Positions 5,223 through 26,805 of a stretch of 26,849 bases of DNA are shown here, one piece after another (positions within the stretch are counted from its first letter, which is position 1; each line of letters starts with the position of its first letter). The notes under the pieces are model-generated. The model was not told the origin of the DNA, ran no database searches, and saw only the letters and a program-made list of their open reading frames with translations. Origin of the DNA: a virus; the IMG/VR virus record IMGVR_UViG_3300020183_000388, positions 1 to 26,849 of that record. One strand, given 5' to 3'. Position numbers and translations under genes: made by a program.

Positions 5223-5942
5223 ATGCCTTTACCAAAAATTAGCACTCCAACTTATGAGTTGGATTTGCCATCTACAGGACAAACAATCAAATATCGTCCA
5301 TTTCTTGTAAGAGAAGAAAAACTACTTGTTCTTGCATTAGAATCTGAGGATTCGAAGCAGATTACAAATGCAATCAAGACAGTTATCAAAAACTGTATCG
5401 AGACAAAGAATATCAAGGTTGAATCTCTTCCAACATTTGATATTGAATATCTTTTCCTCAATATTCGCGGTAAGTCTGTTGGAGAAGAGATTGAAGTCAA
5501 TATTATTTGTCCAGACGATGGGGAAACATCGGTTCCCGTAAAAATCAATATTGATGAAATTCAAGTTGAAAAGAATCCAGACCATAAGAAGCAAATTAAA
5601 GTTGATGCTTCTATCATGATGGAGATGAAATATCCATCACTGGATCAATTTATCAAAAACAACTTTGATTTATCTGGTAACAACGCAGTTGATCAATCGT
5701 TTGATTTAATTGCATCTTGCGTTGATAAGATCTACACTGAGGATGAGGTATGGACTGCTGCTGATGTAACGAAGAAAGAGATTGCAGAATTCTTAGATCA
5801 AATGAACTCTGCACAGTTCAAAGAAATTGAAGCATTCTTTGAAACAATGCCCAAACTCAGTCATAAGATTCAAGTTACAAATCCAAAAACTGAAGTTGAA
5901 AGTGAAGTTGTTCTGGAAGGGCTATCATCTTTTTTCGCGTAG
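5223..5942 (+). CDS. gp26: gp26-like baseplate hub assembly / tail-assembly chaperone protein
   Basis: This 239-aa protein compares with 208 aa in T4 gp26 and belongs to the T4 baseplate-protein family. It starts MPLPKISTPTYELDLPSTGQ and has IKYRPFLVREEKLLVLALES near 23-42, a conserved block in this family. A small cysteine-containing beta unit follows (IICPDDGETSVPVKI), then helical segments with FLDQMNSAQFKEIEAFFETM. In T4 it helps assemble the central hub. Its position directly before tape-measure-like genes is that of lambda gpG. The last codons contain a T TTT TTC slip site, and the ORF in the -1 frame continues with the gp51-like segment, so a 300-aa fusion is likely. Confidence 0.8.
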   Translation: MPLPKISTPTYELDLPSTGQTIKYRPFLVREEKLLVLALESEDSKQITNAIKTVIKNCIETKNIKVESLPTFDIEYLFLNIRGKSVGEEIEVNIICPDDGETSVPVKINIDEIQVEKNPDHKKQIKVDASIMMEMKYPSLDQFIKNNFDLSGNNAVDQSFDLIASCVDKIYTEDEVWTAADVTKKEIAEFLDQMNSAQFKEIEAFFETMPKLSHKIQVTNPKTEVESEVVLEGLSSFFA

Positions 5943-5960
5943 GAATGGTCCATATGGACC
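5930..5960 (+). promoter_or_regulatory. Probable -1 programmed ribosomal frameshift signal
   Basis: In the gp26 frame, T TTT TTC (5930-5936) fits the X XXY YYZ slippery rule (X=T, Y=T, Z=C). It is one codon (GCG) before the TAG stop. Ten nt downstream is the perfect 14-nt palindrome GGTCCATATGGACC (5947-5960), able to form a 5-bp GC-rich stem with a 4-nt loop. A -1 slip reads F-F-R-V-G-M and enters the next ORF without meeting a stop. The predicted fusion is 238+3+59 = 300 residues. Confidence 0.65.
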
Positions 5961-6124
5961 TGGAGAGTTACTATCAACTCAACTTTTCGTTAATGCAGTA
6001 TCATAAATATTCATTAACAGAGATTGAAAATATGATTCCTTGGGAAAGAGACATTTATGTTGCTCTTCTTAAGAATCACATAGAGGAAGAGGAACTCAAA
6101 CAACGACAAACTAATGGCCGATAA
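5945..6124 (+). CDS. gp51-like / lambda T-like tail-assembly segment (59 aa, probably made as frameshift extension)
   Basis: This short frame runs from ATG 5945 to TAA 6122-6124 and encodes MVHMDLESYYQLNFSLMQYH..., ending with a charged helix LKQRQTNGR. It contains IPWERDIYVALL, the (W/F)E-x-x-(I/L)Y-x-x-(L/A)L pattern typical of the C-terminal parts of frameshifted tail-assembly chaperones. The ATG has no strong ribosome site of its own (GTAGGA is 1 nt away and overlaps the gp26 stop). It is in the -1 frame relative to gp26 and can be joined by slippage. Its end overlaps the next gene by 11 nt. The name gp51 is positional (T4 51-26 pair); the short length differs from T4 gp51 (249 aa). Confidence 0.75.
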   Translation: MVHMDLESYYQLNFSLMQYHKYSLTEIENMIPWERDIYVALLKNHIEEEELKQRQTNGR

Positions 6125-8153
6125 TCTAAACAACAAAAGAATATCAGCCCTTAGTTTAGTTGGTAAGGATAGGTATGACCAATATGTTCAAGAATTATCA
6201 GCACAGGGAACAATTGCAGGAAATCAATTAAGTCCTTCAGAAAGAAAAGAAGCATTCAAAAAAAGAAATAATAAAGTTGCATTTAAGACTTTTGTAGAGA
6301 AAGTATTACAAAAGAAAGCAGTAGCAACAGCAAGAATTAAACCAATTGGAATTAAAGCACTTCCTGCAGCAGGTGGCGCACTTGTCAAATATACGCCGCA
6401 AGCAGAAACACAAAAATCATCATTTGGTGTCTTAAAGATTTTAAAATCAATTCTTGATACTCTAAAGAATCAGTTTAAGTTTGATAAGAAAAAAGATGCT
6501 GATGATAAGAAAGAAGAAGAAAACGAGAGAAGAAGTAAAAGAGAAAGTGCTCTTGAAGGTGTAAAGAAAATTGGTGGTAAGATTGTTGATAAAGTAATTG
6601 CACCATTCAAAAGTATTTTTGATCGTATTTGGAACTTTATATTCTTTACATTACTTGGTAGAGCATTCACTCAACTGATGAATTGGTTGGGGGATCCAAA
6701 AAATTCTGAGAAAGTTGCAGTTCTTGGTAGATTTTTAAAAGATTGGTGGCCTGCACTTCTTGGATTATACTTCATGCCTTTCAAAGGTTTTATGTTAAAA
6801 ACCCTTGGAAGTATTGCTGGATTTGCTGCAAAATTTGCATTAGTAAATCCTCTTGGTTTATCTGCTTCAGTTGCGCTTGGTGGTGAGTATCTTAGAAGAA
6901 AAGCGGATCCAATCAAACAGAAGATAACTAAAGAATATGCAGAAAAGGAAGCAAAAAGAACTGGAAAAACTCCTGAGCAAATAAAAGAAGAATTAAAAAA
7001 GATAGATGAAAGAAGTCAATTTTTAAGAAGTCTTGGTAATGTTAATGTCAATCCATACGAATATGCATCTGGTGGATTCATTAGTTCAAAAACTGGAATT
7101 AGAATTAGTGGAGCTGGTGCGGATACTCAACTGACAGCGTTACAACCTGGTGAAGTTGTAATGAATGTTCCAACAGTGAAAGCAGTTGGCGCAAATAATC
7201 TTCTTGCATTAAATTCAAAATATGGTGGCCCAAATGCAAACAAACCAAAATTTGCAAATAATATTCAGTTTGCAGATCTTGGTGGAATGGTTGGTCTAAC
7301 TTGGAGACCGGGCACATCTCTTGAATTTAAGGCAAGTGGCCAAGCGGGAGATAATTTAAATCAATATAAGGCTGATCTTATCCTTGGACATGGAACTATT
7401 GGAGGAGGATATAATCCATTATTATTAAATCGGGGACTTGATGCATTAGAAGGCGCAAATTTGCCTCTGACTAAAGAAACGACTATTAACACATCAAACC
7501 CAACAAGAAAAGGTTTTTTTGGAAGTGGTTCCTTCAATATGTCCAGTTTTCAAAACTTTCTTCCAACTATAAATCAAAATACTCCAAGAAAAAAACCACC
7601 CCCAACAGAGGAAACAGGTCCTAGAAATGGAGATACTTCTGTACCACCAGTGACACCGACAGATGGTCGAAGGGATGGTATAATTCCAGTGACACCGACA
7701 GATGGTCGAAGGGATGGTACAATTCCAGTGATGCCGATGATGCCGAATGGTACAAGAAGTGAAAGATTTCAGGGTGGAGGAATGGTTAAAGGTACTACAG
7801 GAATTAAAATTTCTGGAGCAACGGCTGATAGAAGACTTACTGCAGTGCAACCCGGTGAATATATTTTGCCCACAGACACTGTATCAAAACTTGGATCATC
7901 TTTAATTGATAAACTTGTTGCCACGACTGATAGTAATTCAAATCCAACTAAATTTGGAAAAAGAAATCTAAGATATATGCCAACTCCACTTTCAAGAGGT
8001 GGTAAAGGTGGTGTTATGACTCTTCCTCCAATTACTCAATCAACATCAAATAATGTACCTATGGCTACAGCAGGAACGCCAGTTTCACCCTTCTCTGCAA
8101 CTTCTTCCATGAGTGATAGAGGAACTATTGCGGATATTTACGGGATAGTATAA
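6114..8153 (+). CDS. Tape-measure-like tail structural protein 1 (679 aa)
   Basis: The protein has a charged N-terminal third with coiled-coil character (about 120-150, Lys/Glu-rich). Hydrophobic stretches follow at about 170-190 (IWNFIFFTLLGRAFTQLMNW) and 209-255 (WPALLGLYFMPFKGFMLKTL and beyond). Then comes a low-complexity, Gly/Pro-rich C-terminal half. Two copies of a module at about 319-367 and 552-600 share G-I-(R/K)-ISGA-x-AD-x-x-LTA-x-QPGE followed by TV. The pattern GG-x-I/V...A/V-x-PGE is common in the C-termini of phage tape-measure proteins. It also has a 13-residue PVTPTDGRRDG-x-I tandem repeat. Its location immediately after the gp26/gp51 chaperone pair fits a tape measure. The T4 counterpart would be gp29 (590 aa), but I cannot show homology. 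Confidence 0.6.
   Translation: MADNLNNKRISALSLVGKDRYDQYVQELSAQGTIAGNQLSPSERKEAFKKRNNKVAFKTFVEKVLQKKAVATARIKPIGIKALPAAGGALVKYTPQAETQKSSFGVLKILKSILDTLKNQFKFDKKKDADDKKEEENERRSKRESALEGVKKIGGKIVDKVIAPFKSIFDRIWNFIFFTLLGRAFTQLMNWLGDPKNSEKVAVLGRFLKDWWPALLGLYFMPFKGFMLKTLGSIAGFAAKFALVNPLGLSASVALGGEYLRRKADPIKQKITKEYAEKEAKRTGKTPEQIKEELKKIDERSQFLRSLGNVNVNPYEYASGGFISSKTGIRISGAGADTQLTALQPGEVVMNVPTVKAVGANNLLALNSKYGGPNANKPKFANNIQFADLGGMVGLTWRPGTSLEFKASGQAGDNLNQYKADLILGHGTIGGGYNPLLLNRGLDALEGANLPLTKETTINTSNPTRKGFFGSGSFNMSSFQNFLPTINQNTPRKKPPPTEETGPRNGDTSVPPVTPTDGRRDGIIPVTPTDGRRDGTIPVMPMMPNGTRSERFQGGGMVKGTTGIKISGATADRRLTAVQPGEYILPTDTVSKLGSSLIDKLVATTDSNSNPTKFGKRNLRYMPTPLSRGGKGGVMTLPPITQSTSNNVPMATAGTPVSPFSATSSMSDRGTIADIYGIV
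7647..7740 (+). repeat. 39-bp tandem repeat (13-aa unit) in the tape-measure-like gene
   Basis: Two copies at 7647-7685 and 7686-7724 are nearly identical and begin CCAGTGACACCGACAGATGG. A third, truncated copy begins at 7725. The repeat encodes PVTPTDGRRDG-x-I and preserves the frame, so copy number could vary without breaking the gene. Confidence 0.85.
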
Positions 8154-8154
8154 A

Positions 8155-10743
8155 ATGGCAGTCAATACCCAAAAACTTTTACCTCCATCAAAACTGACAA
8201 CAGCAGAAAGAATGTCTGCTTCTTATGACAAGAGAATTGATGATATTCTTAATTTTGAAATAAAAGAAAAACTTATAGATGTTGATAAGTTTTTTAAAAA
8301 AAATATTAAAGATAAGAAAAAAAAGGAAAAAGAAAAGAAAAAAGGAAAGCAGAGAAAAAAGAGAGCAGAAAAAGAAAGGAATTTGGAAACACCTAAAGGT
8401 ATCAAAGGAGTAGAAAAAACAAAATCTTTAATTCCAAAGACTGGAATTTTGGATGCGGTTCAACGATTTGCTACCTTTACATTCTTAGGTTATTTGTTAG
8501 GTAAGTTTGGAGGAGAAACTCCGAAACTTTTAGGAATTCTTAAAAACGTAGGTCCGGTAATTAATACTACAGAAAAAATTATTGGTGGAATTTTTGAAGG
8601 TATTGTTGGATTTATTGATGCTGGATATAAGGCCCACGATCAAATGCGAGCACTCTCCAAAGATATTGGAGGAGAGAAAGCACAAAAAGTTTATGATGAC
8701 TTTAGTTCTAATTTCAATAGATTCTTAAATGCCGTATTAACTTTTGGGTTATCAGAACTCGGTAGAGAAAGTGAAATTCCGCCAGAGAAAAAATCTGGTG
8801 GAGGAATGGTTCGTGGGTATGCAAGAGGGGGTCAATCAACAAGAGGTGGCAGAGTAGTAGGTGGCGCTATTGGAAGAACATTCAAAATACAGAGAGGAGT
8901 TCAAAGGCCACAAAGAGTTCAACCAGAAAAAGTGAGTCCCGGTAAAGATGTTGGTGGCAAATTAAAGATCGAAAAGTTATATCCAAATCCAAAACCAACT
9001 TCTGGAAAACGAACACCAAATCCATACAAAGCACTGACTGGTGTTTCTGAGAGTTTAGATAAAGGTGGGTGGATCGGTGCTTTAATGAGTGCTGGTGTTA
9101 AAGTTGCATTGGGTCAAAAAGTCAATGTAAGAAGAATTGCATCCACAGTTTCGAGTGGCGTTGAATCTTTATCACAGGCACAAGGCAGTAGTTTAGATAC
9201 AGTAAGTCGTTCAATTCTGGGAATGGCTGATGGTGGTCGTGTACCTTTAGAAAAAAATGATCGAATGATGAGTGGTTTGCTTGCAACTTTGATCCAAACC
9301 AGAGTCAACGAAGCACTTAAAAATGTTACTGATGAATTACTTAAAGTTCCTGAAGCAACATCACCAGGAAGGCCTGGTGGAGGCGGAGATCCTGGCGGCG
9401 GTGGTGGTGGAACAAATATTGAGAAGATTAAAATGGGCGATTTTAGTGACGAAGATATTGATGTTCTTGGTAGAATGATTGCAGCAGAGGCAGGTAATCA
9501 ACCTAAACTTGGAAAGGCAGGCGTTCTATCTGTGATTTTAAATCGTTATCGTCTTGCTAAATCTGGTGATCGTGGGTATATGCCACCTGGAAAAAATAAA
9601 GATAATGTAACTTTAAAGGATATCATATATGCTGAAGGTCAGTTTACTCCAATAACAGATGGTAGATTTGATAGAACTTCATCTGCTGCTGGAAAGAACG
9701 CTCTAGATGATGCAATTTCTGCATCTGGAAATGATCCTCAAAAGTTTAAACAAAAACTAATGAAAGATTTAAAGTTGAGTGAAGCTGATGCCGAACTTGT
9801 TGTAAGAGCGACGGCATTCTCTAATCCAAAAATCAGATCAGTAAGACCATTTAATACTCCAGAAGTTGAAGTGGGAGATCATGCATTCCAAGCATCTCCA
9901 TATTCAAGAATAGGATCTTTTCCTGGGGCAATTTCTGCTAACGTTACTAAACTTGAAGGTGAAAGTAAAGTATCAGCAGATATCAAAGATTTTAGAAAAT
10001 TTAGAGCAGCACAATTTGGTGCAAGTGCCGAAAGAAATCCAACAGCAGGAGGTGAATATTATCAAATAAGAGAATTGGGAGTTTATGGTAGAAAAGATTA
10101 TAAAATAAGTCCTCTTGCTGATGACTTGTCATATGAAATTGAAGAGCATTCGGGCGCTGGTCATTATGAAAACCGTGCCTTTGATATTCCAGTTCCAAAT
10201 AGTTCTGCGGAAGGCGATGCAGTTGCTCAATATTGGAGAAGTAAAGGTTATACTGTTATCTGGAAATCTGAGGGACACTACGACCATGTGCATGTGGAAG
10301 TTCCTGCGGATAAAGCAGATCAATTTTTTAAGATAGTTAAAACAGAAAAAACGAAATTAAAAATCAAGAAGAAAAAAGAAGAAAAGACAATAAAATCAAA
10401 TCTTGAGAAGATAGTAAATAGAGTTAAGAAGGAAAAAAAACTTATAGATAAAAGACCTTGGTATGACAAGTTAGGATTGTTTGGTGGTGCAGCTGGAGCA
10501 GCATCCAGAGCATCTATGAGAGCATCAAAAAAACAAGGTGGTGGTTTCGTGGGACCACAAAACAAAAGAAATTATTCCTCACTTTCCATGTATCCATCTT
10601 ACGACGATGGAGGCGGCATGATGGTTGCAATTCAACCAATAATTATTGAAAAACCAGTCGCAACGCCTACAGGAGGAAGTCAAATGATTGCATTCCCAAT
10701 TCCTGTTGGTGTAAATAATAACATGGCCAGTTTAAGTAGGTAA
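8155..10743 (+). CDS. Tape-measure-like tail protein with SleB-type and M15-like peptidoglycan hydrolase domains (862 aa)
   Basis: Order of parts: a Lys/Glu-rich basic stretch (about 45-80); a hydrophobic segment near 100 (FATFTFLGYLLGKFGG); Gly/Arg-rich linkers (GGGMVRGYARGG); a poly-Gly hinge at about 402-420; then two enzyme-like domains. At 430-580 is a Hydrolase_2/SleB-like domain with AAEAG (candidate catalytic Glu), VLSVILNRYR, EGQFTPITDGR and GDHAF. At about 634-718 is an M15-peptidase-like domain with HYENRAFD (H-x6-D) and GHYDHVHVEV (final H-x-H), the expected zinc ligands. It is probably a virion wall-opening enzyme acting on the host peptidoglycan during DNA entry. The start is 1 nt after the previous stop. 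Enzyme activity is inferred from motifs. Confidence 0.7.
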   Translation: MAVNTQKLLPPSKLTTAERMSASYDKRIDDILNFEIKEKLIDVDKFFKKNIKDKKKKEKEKKKGKQRKKRAEKERNLETPKGIKGVEKTKSLIPKTGILDAVQRFATFTFLGYLLGKFGGETPKLLGILKNVGPVINTTEKIIGGIFEGIVGFIDAGYKAHDQMRALSKDIGGEKAQKVYDDFSSNFNRFLNAVLTFGLSELGRESEIPPEKKSGGGMVRGYARGGQSTRGGRVVGGAIGRTFKIQRGVQRPQRVQPEKVSPGKDVGGKLKIEKLYPNPKPTSGKRTPNPYKALTGVSESLDKGGWIGALMSAGVKVALGQKVNVRRIASTVSSGVESLSQAQGSSLDTVSRSILGMADGGRVPLEKNDRMMSGLLATLIQTRVNEALKNVTDELLKVPEATSPGRPGGGGDPGGGGGGTNIEKIKMGDFSDEDIDVLGRMIAAEAGNQPKLGKAGVLSVILNRYRLAKSGDRGYMPPGKNKDNVTLKDIIYAEGQFTPITDGRFDRTSSAAGKNALDDAISASGNDPQKFKQKLMKDLKLSEADAELVVRATAFSNPKIRSVRPFNTPEVEVGDHAFQASPYSRIGSFPGAISANVTKLEGESKVSADIKDFRKFRAAQFGASAERNPTAGGEYYQIRELGVYGRKDYKISPLADDLSYEIEEHSGAGHYENRAFDIPVPNSSAEGDAVAQYWRSKGYTVIWKSEGHYDHVHVEVPADKADQFFKIVKTEKTKLKIKKKKEEKTIKSNLEKIVNRVKKEKKLIDKRPWYDKLGLFGGAAGAASRASMRASKKQGGGFVGPQNKRNYSSLSMYPSYDDGGGMMVAIQPIIIEKPVATPTGGSQMIAFPIPVGVNNNMASLSR

Positions 10744-17033: not shown

Positions 17034-17040
17034 GTTTTTT

Positions 17041-17123
17041 GGGGCGATGGTGGAATCGGTAGACACACCAGACTTAAAATCTGTTGGGCATTGCCCGTGG
17101 GGGTTCAAGTCCCCCTCGCCCTA
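17041..17123 (+). tRNA. tRNA-Leu (anticodon UAA)
   Basis: 83 nt, with acceptor GGGGCGA/TCGCCCT (first pair G-U), the class II D-arm AATCGGTAGACAC, anticodon stem-loop CAGA-CTTAAAA-TCTG with TAA at positions 34-36, a variable arm GGGCATTGCCC-like, and T arm GGGGG-TTCAAGT-CCCCC. Discriminator base A at 17123; CCA is not encoded. It reads UUA (and UUG by wobble). Confidence 0.95.
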
Positions 17124-17165
17124 TTAGAAGTCACTCTCTAAATATACAAAAGTAGAGCATCTACT

Positions 17166-17438: not shown

Positions 17439-17510
17439 GCCCTTGTAGCTCAGTGGTAGAGCAATGGTTTTGTAAACCATTTGTCGCAAGTTCAAGTCTT
17501 GTCGGGGGCT
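17439..17510 (+). tRNA. tRNA-Thr (anticodon UGU)
   Basis: 72 nt, with acceptor GCCCTTG pairing with CGGGGGC (two G-U), D-arm GCTC-AGTGGTAGA-GC, anticodon stem ATGGT/ACCAT with loop TTTGTAA (TGT at 34-36), and T arm GCAAG-TTCAAGT-CTTGT. Discriminator T at 17510; CCA is not encoded. It reads ACA and by wobble ACG. Confidence 0.93.
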
Positions 17511-17529
17511 CTGAGTTCTTATAACTCCA

Positions 17530-17688: not shown

Positions 17689-17851
17689 TCTTTGGTACTG
17701 TAAAGATATGAAGCAATGGCGTTGGACATTGACTGATGATAGTCGTCCAATCGTCAAACAAGAATCTGGACAACAACCATATCTTCGTGACGCTATGAAT
17801 GATGTGGCAAATACTGTAGAATACATGATGGAATGTAAACAAGGTGAATGA
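17678..17851 (+). CDS. Small protein immediately upstream of and overlapping the Mom-like gene (57 aa)
   Basis: I chose the ATG at 17678. The longer frame beginning 17585 (MFKNLKTITALLPLS) overlaps the previous gene in full and is unlikely. The product MKINLWYCKDMKQWRWTLTD ... NDVANTVEYMMECKQGE has aromatic strands and a C-terminal helix. It has two cysteines (8 and 53), not a zinc-finger arrangement. Its stop overlaps the next start as ATGA, so translation is probably coupled to the Mom-like gene. This mirrors com-mom of phage Mu in layout, but the sequence is not Com-like. Function unknown. Confidence 0.6.
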   Translation: MKINLWYCKDMKQWRWTLTDDSRPIVKQESGQQPYLRDAMNDVANTVEYMMECKQGE

Positions 17852-18459
17852 AATCTGATTTTTATATTGATAGAGTGAGTAAATCTGATATCAAAGACCT
17901 TCTTTACACTCACCATTATCTAAAAGACGAATCAAAAGATTTCAAGTCTGGTTTCAACTATGGATTATATCGCAAATCATTTACAGACGTTCTTAGATTG
18001 GGGCCCTGTCTTGGTGCTTGCGTCTTTACTGGTCTACCAGTACCTGAAATCGCAGTAGGAGCATTTGGATTAAATCGTGATGAACAACAAGGAATATTTG
18101 AACTCTCAAGACTTTGCGTCGAACCTGTTACGCAGTCACAAGAATATAACATCACTTCTTGGTTTGTATCACGAGCGATTAGACAACTTCGGAAAGATAC
18201 TGAAGTTAAAGCAATCATTTCTTATGCTGATTCAAATCACCATACTGGTATAATTTATCGTGCTTGTAACTTTAAATACGCAGGTCTATCGGATGCAAAA
18301 AAAGATTTCTATTATTCAGACGGAACTAAACACTCTCGTGGAAAAATAAAAGGTTCTGAAGGCAAATGGAAAGATAGAAGTCGCAAACATCGTTATGTAA
18401 TGATCTTTGATAAAAACTTAAATCTCTTGTGGAAAGAACAAAAGTATGGTATAATATAA
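17848..18459 (+). CDS. Mom-like DNA-modification acyltransferase (GNAT fold)
   Basis: This 203-aa protein has landmarks of the Mu Mom family. HHYL near the N-terminus (22-25) is followed by GAFGLN, then FELSRLCVEPVTQSQEYNIT (85-104), SWFVSRAIRQL, KAIISYADSNHHTGIIYRAC (121-140) and NFKYAGLSD. Mom converts adenine in DNA to a carbamoylmethyl-adenine form, which protects phage DNA from restriction. Family members share the LSRL-x-V, (V/I)SYAD and G-x-(I/V)Y-x-A-x-(N)(F/W)-x-Y-x-G pattern. The C-terminal 50 residues are basic (KGSEGKWKDRSRKHRYV), suited to binding DNA. It overlaps the upstream ORF by 4 nt, and a terminator follows within 25 nt. Function in this phage is inferred; an unrelated GNAT activity is the alternative. 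Confidence 0.75.
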   Translation: MKSDFYIDRVSKSDIKDLLYTHHYLKDESKDFKSGFNYGLYRKSFTDVLRLGPCLGACVFTGLPVPEIAVGAFGLNRDEQQGIFELSRLCVEPVTQSQEYNITSWFVSRAIRQLRKDTEVKAIISYADSNHHTGIIYRACNFKYAGLSDAKKDFYYSDGTKHSRGKIKGSEGKWKDRSRKHRYVMIFDKNLNLLWKEQKYGII

Positions 18460-26208: not shown

Positions 26209-26805
26209 ATGAAAACAAAATATACAGATTTCATTGGAATGTATGAGAATGTATATCCTGATGGATTTTGTCAGCATATGATTGAAGAATTTGAACGTCT
26301 TGACCAATTTGGAATGGTTGGTTCTCGCCAACAAGATGAAAATACGTTAAAAACATCGAAACATGATGATTCGGTAATGTTGAATGTAAGGAATCATCCA
26401 ACTTCATCCTTTGAAGGAGTATCAGCAATAGAAATATTTTTTCAAGGATTGCAAAATTGTTTTGACGAATATGTAAATGAATTTGATATATTAAAAGGTC
26501 CATCTTTAAAATGCAGTTCTGTTAAAATGCAAAAAACAATGCCAGGTGGTGGTTATCATGTGTGGCATCCAGAACAAGGAAATGGTGAGCAAGCTTGGAG
26601 AGGATTGGTCTATTCTTTATATTTGAATTCTTTAGAATCAGATGCCGCTGGAGAAACAGAATTCTTATATCAAAGATGTAGAATTCCACCTAAAGAAAAT
26701 TGTATGATAATATGGCCAGCAGGATTTACACATACGCATCGTGGCAACGTTGTTTATGGGGATAAACCTAAATATATAATAACAGGTTGGTTTTATTACG
26801 ATTAA
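26209..26805 (+). CDS. 2OG-Fe(II) oxygenase (prolyl-hydroxylase-like)
   Basis: This 198-aa protein has the double-stranded beta-helix landmarks of phage 2OG dioxygenases: KMQKTMPGGGYHVWHPEQ with H120-x-E122 (candidate Fe ligands), WRGLVYSLYLN, AAGETEF, then CMIIWPAGFTHTHRGN with distal His 175/177 and a following Arg. KYIITGWFYYD closes the fold. Such enzymes hydroxylate proteins or nucleotides using 2-oxoglutarate and O2; the substrate here is unknown. The gene is among the fibre genes with its own late promoter, so modification of a structural protein or of a late host target is possible. Complete, no truncation. Confidence 0.85.
   Translation: MKTKYTDFIGMYENVYPDGFCQHMIEEFERLDQFGMVGSRQQDENTLKTSKHDDSVMLNVRNHPTSSFEGVSAIEIFFQGLQNCFDEYVNEFDILKGPSLKCSSVKMQKTMPGGGYHVWHPEQGNGEQAWRGLVYSLYLNSLESDAAGETEFLYQRCRIPPKENCMIIWPAGFTHTHRGNVVYGDKPKYIITGWFYYD

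Follow-up and report, generated by a model that had tools for sequence, protein, structure and literature searches.

Does the gp26-like gene of a T4-like cyanophage end at its stop codon, or is the small ORF behind it, which public records call 'gp51', the far end of the same gene? The question is raised by an uncultivated virus (IMG/VR record IMGVR_UViG_3300020183_000388), whose 26,849 nt, here called the window, carry T4-like cyanophage structural genes. An earlier sequence-only reading had proposed a probable -1 programmed frameshift at the end of gp26, and every comparative test that it named supports the proposal. We consider it highly probable that this is a T4-like cyanophage tail-assembly-chaperone locus, in which a programmed -1 slip on T_TTT_TTC would yield a short (TAC-N) and a long (TAC-NC) product. 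The neighbouring 'gp51' is very probably the tail of gp26 rather than a separate gene.

The features of the locus are listed in Table 1. In the 0 frame the gp26-like ORF ends with ...TCA TCT TTT TTC GCG TAG, which sets T_TTT_TTC in the classical -1 phase. The ORF matches PF12322 (T4_baseplate, 4.7e-78), the Pfam domain expected of the short product, as well as phrog_150 (baseplate hub, 1.3e-82), and its AlphaFold2 model has a mean pLDDT of 87.2. Reading in the -1 frame meets no stop from 12 codons before the TAG up to position 6121, and terminates at 6122-6124. After a shift C5936 would be used twice and the following codon would be CGC (Arg), giving a predicted fusion of 238 aa (0 frame) plus 62 aa (-1 frame), 300 aa in total, with the junction SSFF/RVGMVH. 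The sequence-only reading had placed T TTT TTC at 5930-5936, one codon before the gp26 TAG, which is correct to the base, and the open run into a 59-aa ORF and the 300-aa fusion that it described are found as well. For the extension, phrog_634 ('baseplate hub assembly catalyst') is hit at 1.2e-28 and the C-terminal part of phrog_150 at 2.2e-6; the latter match suggests that some phrog_150 members carry both parts fused. The extension contains the conserved motif LExYYxxNFxLMQxHKYSLTEIENMxPWERDIYvxLL and is predicted to be helical (pLDDT 77).

The ORF that follows matches phrog_35029 (unknown function, 8.7e-60), phrog_8927 (tape measure, 7e-5) and phrog_37649 (1.8e-4); its tape-measure matches among the PHROG profiles are all weak (7e-5 to 2.7e-4). 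By eye a repeated motif, TGIRISGAGADTQLTALQPGEVVMN / TGIKISGATADRRLTAVQPGEYILP, can be seen in this plus-strand ORF within the stretches that match tape-measure profiles. Directly behind it lies an 862-aa ORF (8155-10743, plus strand) with a cell-wall-hydrolase-like stretch (PF07486 at 5.8e-5, just under the cut-off; phrog endolysin at 2e-9).

Table 1. Features of the gp26-like locus and its surroundings in the window.
Feature	Position	Strand	Remarks
gp26-like ORF, putative short tail-assembly chaperone (TAC-N), unshifted product	5223..5942	+	239 aa, PF12322
Shine-Dalgarno-like GGAAGGG, probable upstream frameshift stimulator	5915..5921	+	8 nt before slip site
Slippery heptamer T_TTT_TTC	5930..5936	+	X_XXY_YYZ phase of gp26 frame
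-1 frame extension, predicted TAC-C domain	5936..6124	+	62 aa post-shift, then stop
0-frame stop TAG	5940..5942	+	one codon (GCG) 3' of heptamer
59-aa ORF within -1 extension, annotatable; cyanophage 'gp51' of public records	5945..6124	+	ATG5945; second ATG5954
Hairpin GGTCC-ATAT-GGACC, probable downstream stimulator	5947..5960	+	10 nt after heptamer
Second predicted stem, weaker evidence	5961..5989	+	directly 3' of first stem
Next ORF, weakly tape-measure-like	6114..8153	+	679 aa; overlaps end of -1 extension

Among 143 representatives (relatives below 85% identity) the -1 frame is open over 57-75 codons in all 143, in the same phase and with a conserved protein domain. Could this domain be expressed as a gene by itself? 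Ribosomes would then initiate at ATG5954 (or ATG5945), ordinarily or coupled to the stop, and make a free gp51-like protein of 56-59 aa. The window holds TAGGA (5940-5944) at 9 nt before ATG5954, so a separate free product of the small ORF might be made here as well; the trait is not conserved. Public records annotate the small ORF in this way (gp51 in P-SSM2 and P-HM1, a hypothetical protein in S-SM2), and there are Ackermannviridae-like relatives that lack the heptamer, with TAATG-type overlaps in VAP7 and D492. However, no ATG is present within the first 15 codons after the slip in 60/143 representatives, and in 44/143 neither ATG, GTG nor TTG occurs there, before the conserved domain. An ATG with an upstream 4-nt SD match is found in only 16/143. 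Moreover, the residues between slip and ATG are conserved at the protein level, S-CAM4 and Aeh1 keep heptamer and domain with no gene annotated at the -1 ORF, and two separate genes would leave the heptamer unexplained. Since starts and SDs are missing in many relatives, independent initiation is rejected as the general mechanism, and we judge the two-gene explanation very improbable.

The heptamer itself is widely conserved. It is found in phase in 331 of the 341 loci fetched from relatives (Kyanoviridae, several Straboviridae and unrelated proteobacterial myophages), and a chance origin is therefore rejected. All 80 IMG/VR relatives have it 9 nt 5' of a stop with the -1 frame open, and among the relatives the identity of the 0-frame stop varies (TAG/TAA/TGA). 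In sixteen named phages spanning many genera the slip site reads T_TTT_TTC or T_TTT_TTT, the -1 frame encodes the homologous domain, and the P-site codon stands 6-12 nt before the stop: S-SM2, P-SSM2, syn9, Syn33, P-HM1, S-CAM4, P-RSM6, Ochrobactrum OC, Sinorhizobium phiN3, Pseudomonas Astolliot, Aeromonas G2, Agrobacterium OLIVR5, Vibrio PG216, Stenotrophomonas YB07, Acidovorax ACP17 and Vibrio VmeM-32 (the seed queries PG216 and YB07 gave 2 viral loci each). The same arrangement is seen in Aeh1 (L352:1186-2129), where T_TTT_TTC lies immediately 5' of the gp26 stop and the C domain is encoded by an unannotated ORF in the -1 frame, and likewise in Cronobacter S13 (L353).

Codon usage at the site is equally strict. 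Taking 276 distinct CDSs together, TTT occupies the P site and T the base before it without exception (276/276 each), while the A-site codon is TTC in 257, TTT in 12 and TTA in 7. The preceding residue can be Ser, Asn, Asp, Ala, Thr, Gly or His, seven amino acids that are always written with T-ending codons. Elsewhere in the same genes Phe-Phe takes the form T_TTT_TTY in only 4/279 cases. T6 stands at the site in the slip phase in 143/143 representatives; other phases account for 10 near the site, and the remaining gp26 sequence holds in-phase T6 11 times in 96 kb. This conservation reflects constraint on nucleotides and phase, beyond that on the protein alone.

A conserved T6 run in nearly every relative might also be taken as a sign of transcriptional slippage, in which a U is added or dropped and the frames are joined in mixed mRNAs. 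Runs of six or seven T are, however, short for polymerase slippage, and those found here are only six or seven long. The X_XXY_YYZ phase kept in 143/143 is not needed by slippage, the A-site TTA of seven CDSs keeps a ribosomal slip heptamer but alters the protein, and an SD-like element with a downstream hairpin fits ribosomes. On phase, run length and the TTTTTTA variants this explanation is judged highly unlikely, even more so than two separate genes. Least credible is protein-level selection on Phe-Phe with the slip site as a functionless by-product: the pair is conserved at the gp26 end and occurs in some T4-type gp26, but codon choice and preceding base are fixed against background usage, T4-type gp26 codes the pair as TTC TTC, TTC TTT or G-TTT TTT, and the open frame is always the -1 frame.

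The 10/341 loci without an in-phase heptamer comprise six T4-type gp26, three Ackermannviridae-like loci and one relative from a Stenotrophomonas phage (L344) with a shorter T run. Around position 1650 the latter carries T5 against the T6 of its sister (L343), a one-base deletion that throws gp26 into another frame and may be either a homopolymer sequencing error or a real variant. The Ackermannviridae-like VAP7, MAM1 and D492 (L092, L098, L099) keep the C domain in an open -1 frame and show GTTTTT, GTTTTC or CTTTTC at the end of gp26, the overlaps of VAP7 and D492 being of the stop-start kind. Weaker one-tRNA slippage or stop-start coupling may be considered as candidate mechanisms for these relatives.

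Besides the heptamer, two further elements deserve attention. Upstream, a Glu-Gly codon pair ends 8 to 9 nt before the slip in the representatives. At this site the pair is SD-like in 111 of the 119 representatives that have it, whereas Glu-Gly pairs at other places are SD-like in 73/126 cases (Fisher p 4.7e-11, with related sequences counted as independent). Also, anti-SD pairing 5-11 nt upstream of the slip is stronger than in synonymous shuffles. In the window, GGAAGGG at 5915-5921 is probably an upstream frameshift stimulator.

Downstream, the sequence-only reading had pointed to a GGTCC-ATAT-GGACC stem 10 nt past the heptamer. It is indeed present (GGTCCATATGGACC, 5947-5960), and the 26,849-nt record has no other copy of it. 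The second stem appears when the segment 5937-5991 is folded to its energy minimum (-13.6 kcal/mol), and a stem in that region is also predicted in several relatives. Taken alone the hairpin of the window is not unusual (z = -1.31 for the 55-nt fold, 19/200 shuffles being as good), so its support is comparative. Of 28 positions compared, the 45-nt segment that begins 10 nt after the slip start has the lowest mean folding z (-1.50 +/- 0.12). The hairpins sit at the same place but differ among clades (for example GCCCTC/GAGGGC in the P-HM1 clade). Covariation of the palindrome is seen in the 48 relatives whose first stem codon is Val or Ile: 97.1% of the cells are paired and 20 cells carry double-sided changes (counts that include related sequences). 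In 0/500 shuffles was the value reached, and slid controls gave far lower ones. The codon combinations include Val GTC/Asp GAC (22 sequences), Ile ATC/Asp GAT (11) and Val GTT/Asn AAC (4); ATC with GAC was never found among these 48. The palindrome stem is absent from Ser-subtype relatives, which appear to rely on one located farther downstream. Given the latter and the different hairpins of other clades, the palindrome is rejected as one universal stem. For the window, the hairpin at 5947-5960 is a probable downstream stimulator. The comparison of junctions in relatives, suggested earlier as a check, finds the heptamer and the ORF phase conserved, along with a hairpin downstream; an independent start is not conserved.

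How does this locus relate to T4, where gp26 and gp51 are separate genes? T4 gp26 and gp51 are paralogues that both match PF12322 and phrog_150, as does the ORF in the window. T4 gp51 consists of a full gp26-like protein plus a C-terminal domain of ~50 aa in a single ORF, so gp51 would be matched by the frameshift product and gp26 by the unshifted one. In an alignment with 13 phages, the predicted fusions run collinearly with T4 gp51, from end to end for the fusion, and the unshifted product follows T4 gp26. The extension in the window and T4 gp51 are both matched by phrog_634, and the C-domain profile aligns with T4 gp51 207-244 at 37% identity (hhalign E 1.6e-4, with a probability of only 50.6). 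The 'gp51-like segment' of the sequence-only reading would be joined in the -1 frame as proposed, but it corresponds only to the C-terminal domain of T4 gp51.

Despite the shared families and the collinearity, the arrangement differs. In T4, and likewise in the T4-type relatives checked, gp26 and gp51 are divergently transcribed, and none of these loci has a heptamer, even where Phe-Phe is kept. The window holds a single locus with the second ORF in the -1 frame and lacks the separate-gene T4-type arrangement. T4 has two genes, one for the short and one for the long form, where this phage would have one recoded gene. We think it fairly likely that this holds more widely: among myophages that are related to T4 but stand outside the T4-type lineages, gp26 together with the small 'gp51' would make up a single frameshift gene whose signal has three parts (an SD-like element, T_TTT_TTY/A and a replaceable, lineage-specific hairpin), representing the older state from which T4 duplicated gp26 and fused the C domain. 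If this is true, many annotated cyanophage 'gp51' would not be genes and Aeh1 would not be without gp51.

Starting from what was observed directly (sequence elements, conservation, phase, covariation and the collinear alignment of T4 gp51 with the predicted fusion), we infer the occurrence and rate of the shift and the chaperone function in this phage. Most ribosomes on gp26 would stop at TAG5940 and release the 239-aa TAC-N. A minority would be held by the SD-like element 8 nt upstream together with the hairpin 10 nt downstream and slip back one base on T_TTT_TTC, the P-site Phe-tRNA re-pairing from TTT to TTT and the A-site Phe-tRNA from TTC to TTT. Reading on in the -1 frame would yield the 300-aa TAC-NC with its ~60-aa helical C-terminal domain. 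If lambda gpG/gpGT is a guide, the coat on the tape-measure protein might hold many copies of TAC-N and few of TAC-NC, and the C domain might recruit the tail-tube protein.

Xu, Hendrix & Duda reportedly described a conserved tail-gene frameshift of dsDNA phages in 2004. In lambda, gpG and gpGT arise through a -1 frameshift, and a frameshift in tail genes is common in dsDNA phages (PMC5009743). The window resembles lambda in having a short ORF with a -1 slip heptamer near its end, a second ORF in the -1 frame and then an ORF that is weakly tape-measure-like; it differs in belonging to a contractile-tail T4-type phage. The likeness is one of gene arrangement. From the collinearity of the fusion with T4 gp51 and the absence of the slip site from the divergent T4-type genes, the locus is read as being of the lambda G/GT type. 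A similar tail-assembly-chaperone locus is found in Vandenendeviridae/Andersonviridae (PMC12846349), with a poly-T -1 frameshift at the end of TAC-N and a -1 C domain before the tape measure. There the motif is GTTTTT, whereas the window has the full T_TTT_TTC, and the likeness again lies in the arrangement. When the TAC-N AlphaFold2 model is compared with the PDB, the HK97 chaperone (2ob9) ranks 5-6 (probability 0.28/0.20, E 0.58/0.69), which is not significant, and neither the TAC-N nor the C-domain profile found a match among PDB sequences. The BFVD fold search returned mainly the same gp26 family.

T4 gp26 and gp51 have been listed as hub assembly chaperones (PMC3004832). The sequence-only reading knew of no description of a frameshift for T4-type gp26/gp51, but poly-T signals in T4-like phages are already in print: PMC12846349 credits Vladimirov et al. 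2022 with poly-T -1 frameshift signals in TAC-N genes of T4-like phages. Vladimirov, Gautam & Davidson 2022 (Virology 566:9-15) reportedly identified the T4-like tail-assembly-chaperone genes. PMC10885494 mentions that some T4-like phages have a short gene and a fused long gene instead of frameshifting. The T4-like case has been reported before, and the present locus is a fresh instance of a mechanism known from lambda. With the general idea in print, the surprise is limited. The SD-like element, the clade-wise exchange of hairpins with covariation and the Aeh1 case may be additions to the published picture.

Cyanophage gp51 was noted to be ~20% of the usual length, with the first ~200 residues absent, and Aeh1 to be without gp51 (Sullivan et al. 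2010, PMC3037559). A frameshift would account for both observations: the 'missing' 200 residues would come from gp26, and Aeh1 has the same site with the unannotated -1 ORF. Consequently, cyanophage gp26 and gp51 might best be annotated as one recoded gene. The two arrangements, frameshift and gene duplication, also offer a natural comparison of how T4-type phages set the ratio of the two chaperones.

A few other genes of the window, all on the plus strand, may be mentioned. Mom is a DNA-modification protein known from phage Mu, and a 203-aa ORF of the Mom family (17848-18459, PF25680 at 3.4e-22) lies within the T4-like cyanophage structural region. Two tRNA genes, Leu (TAA) and Thr (TGT), are located at 17040-17124 and 17439-17511, and an ORF at 26209-26805 encodes a putative 2OG-Fe(II) oxygenase (PF13640, 1.6e-8).
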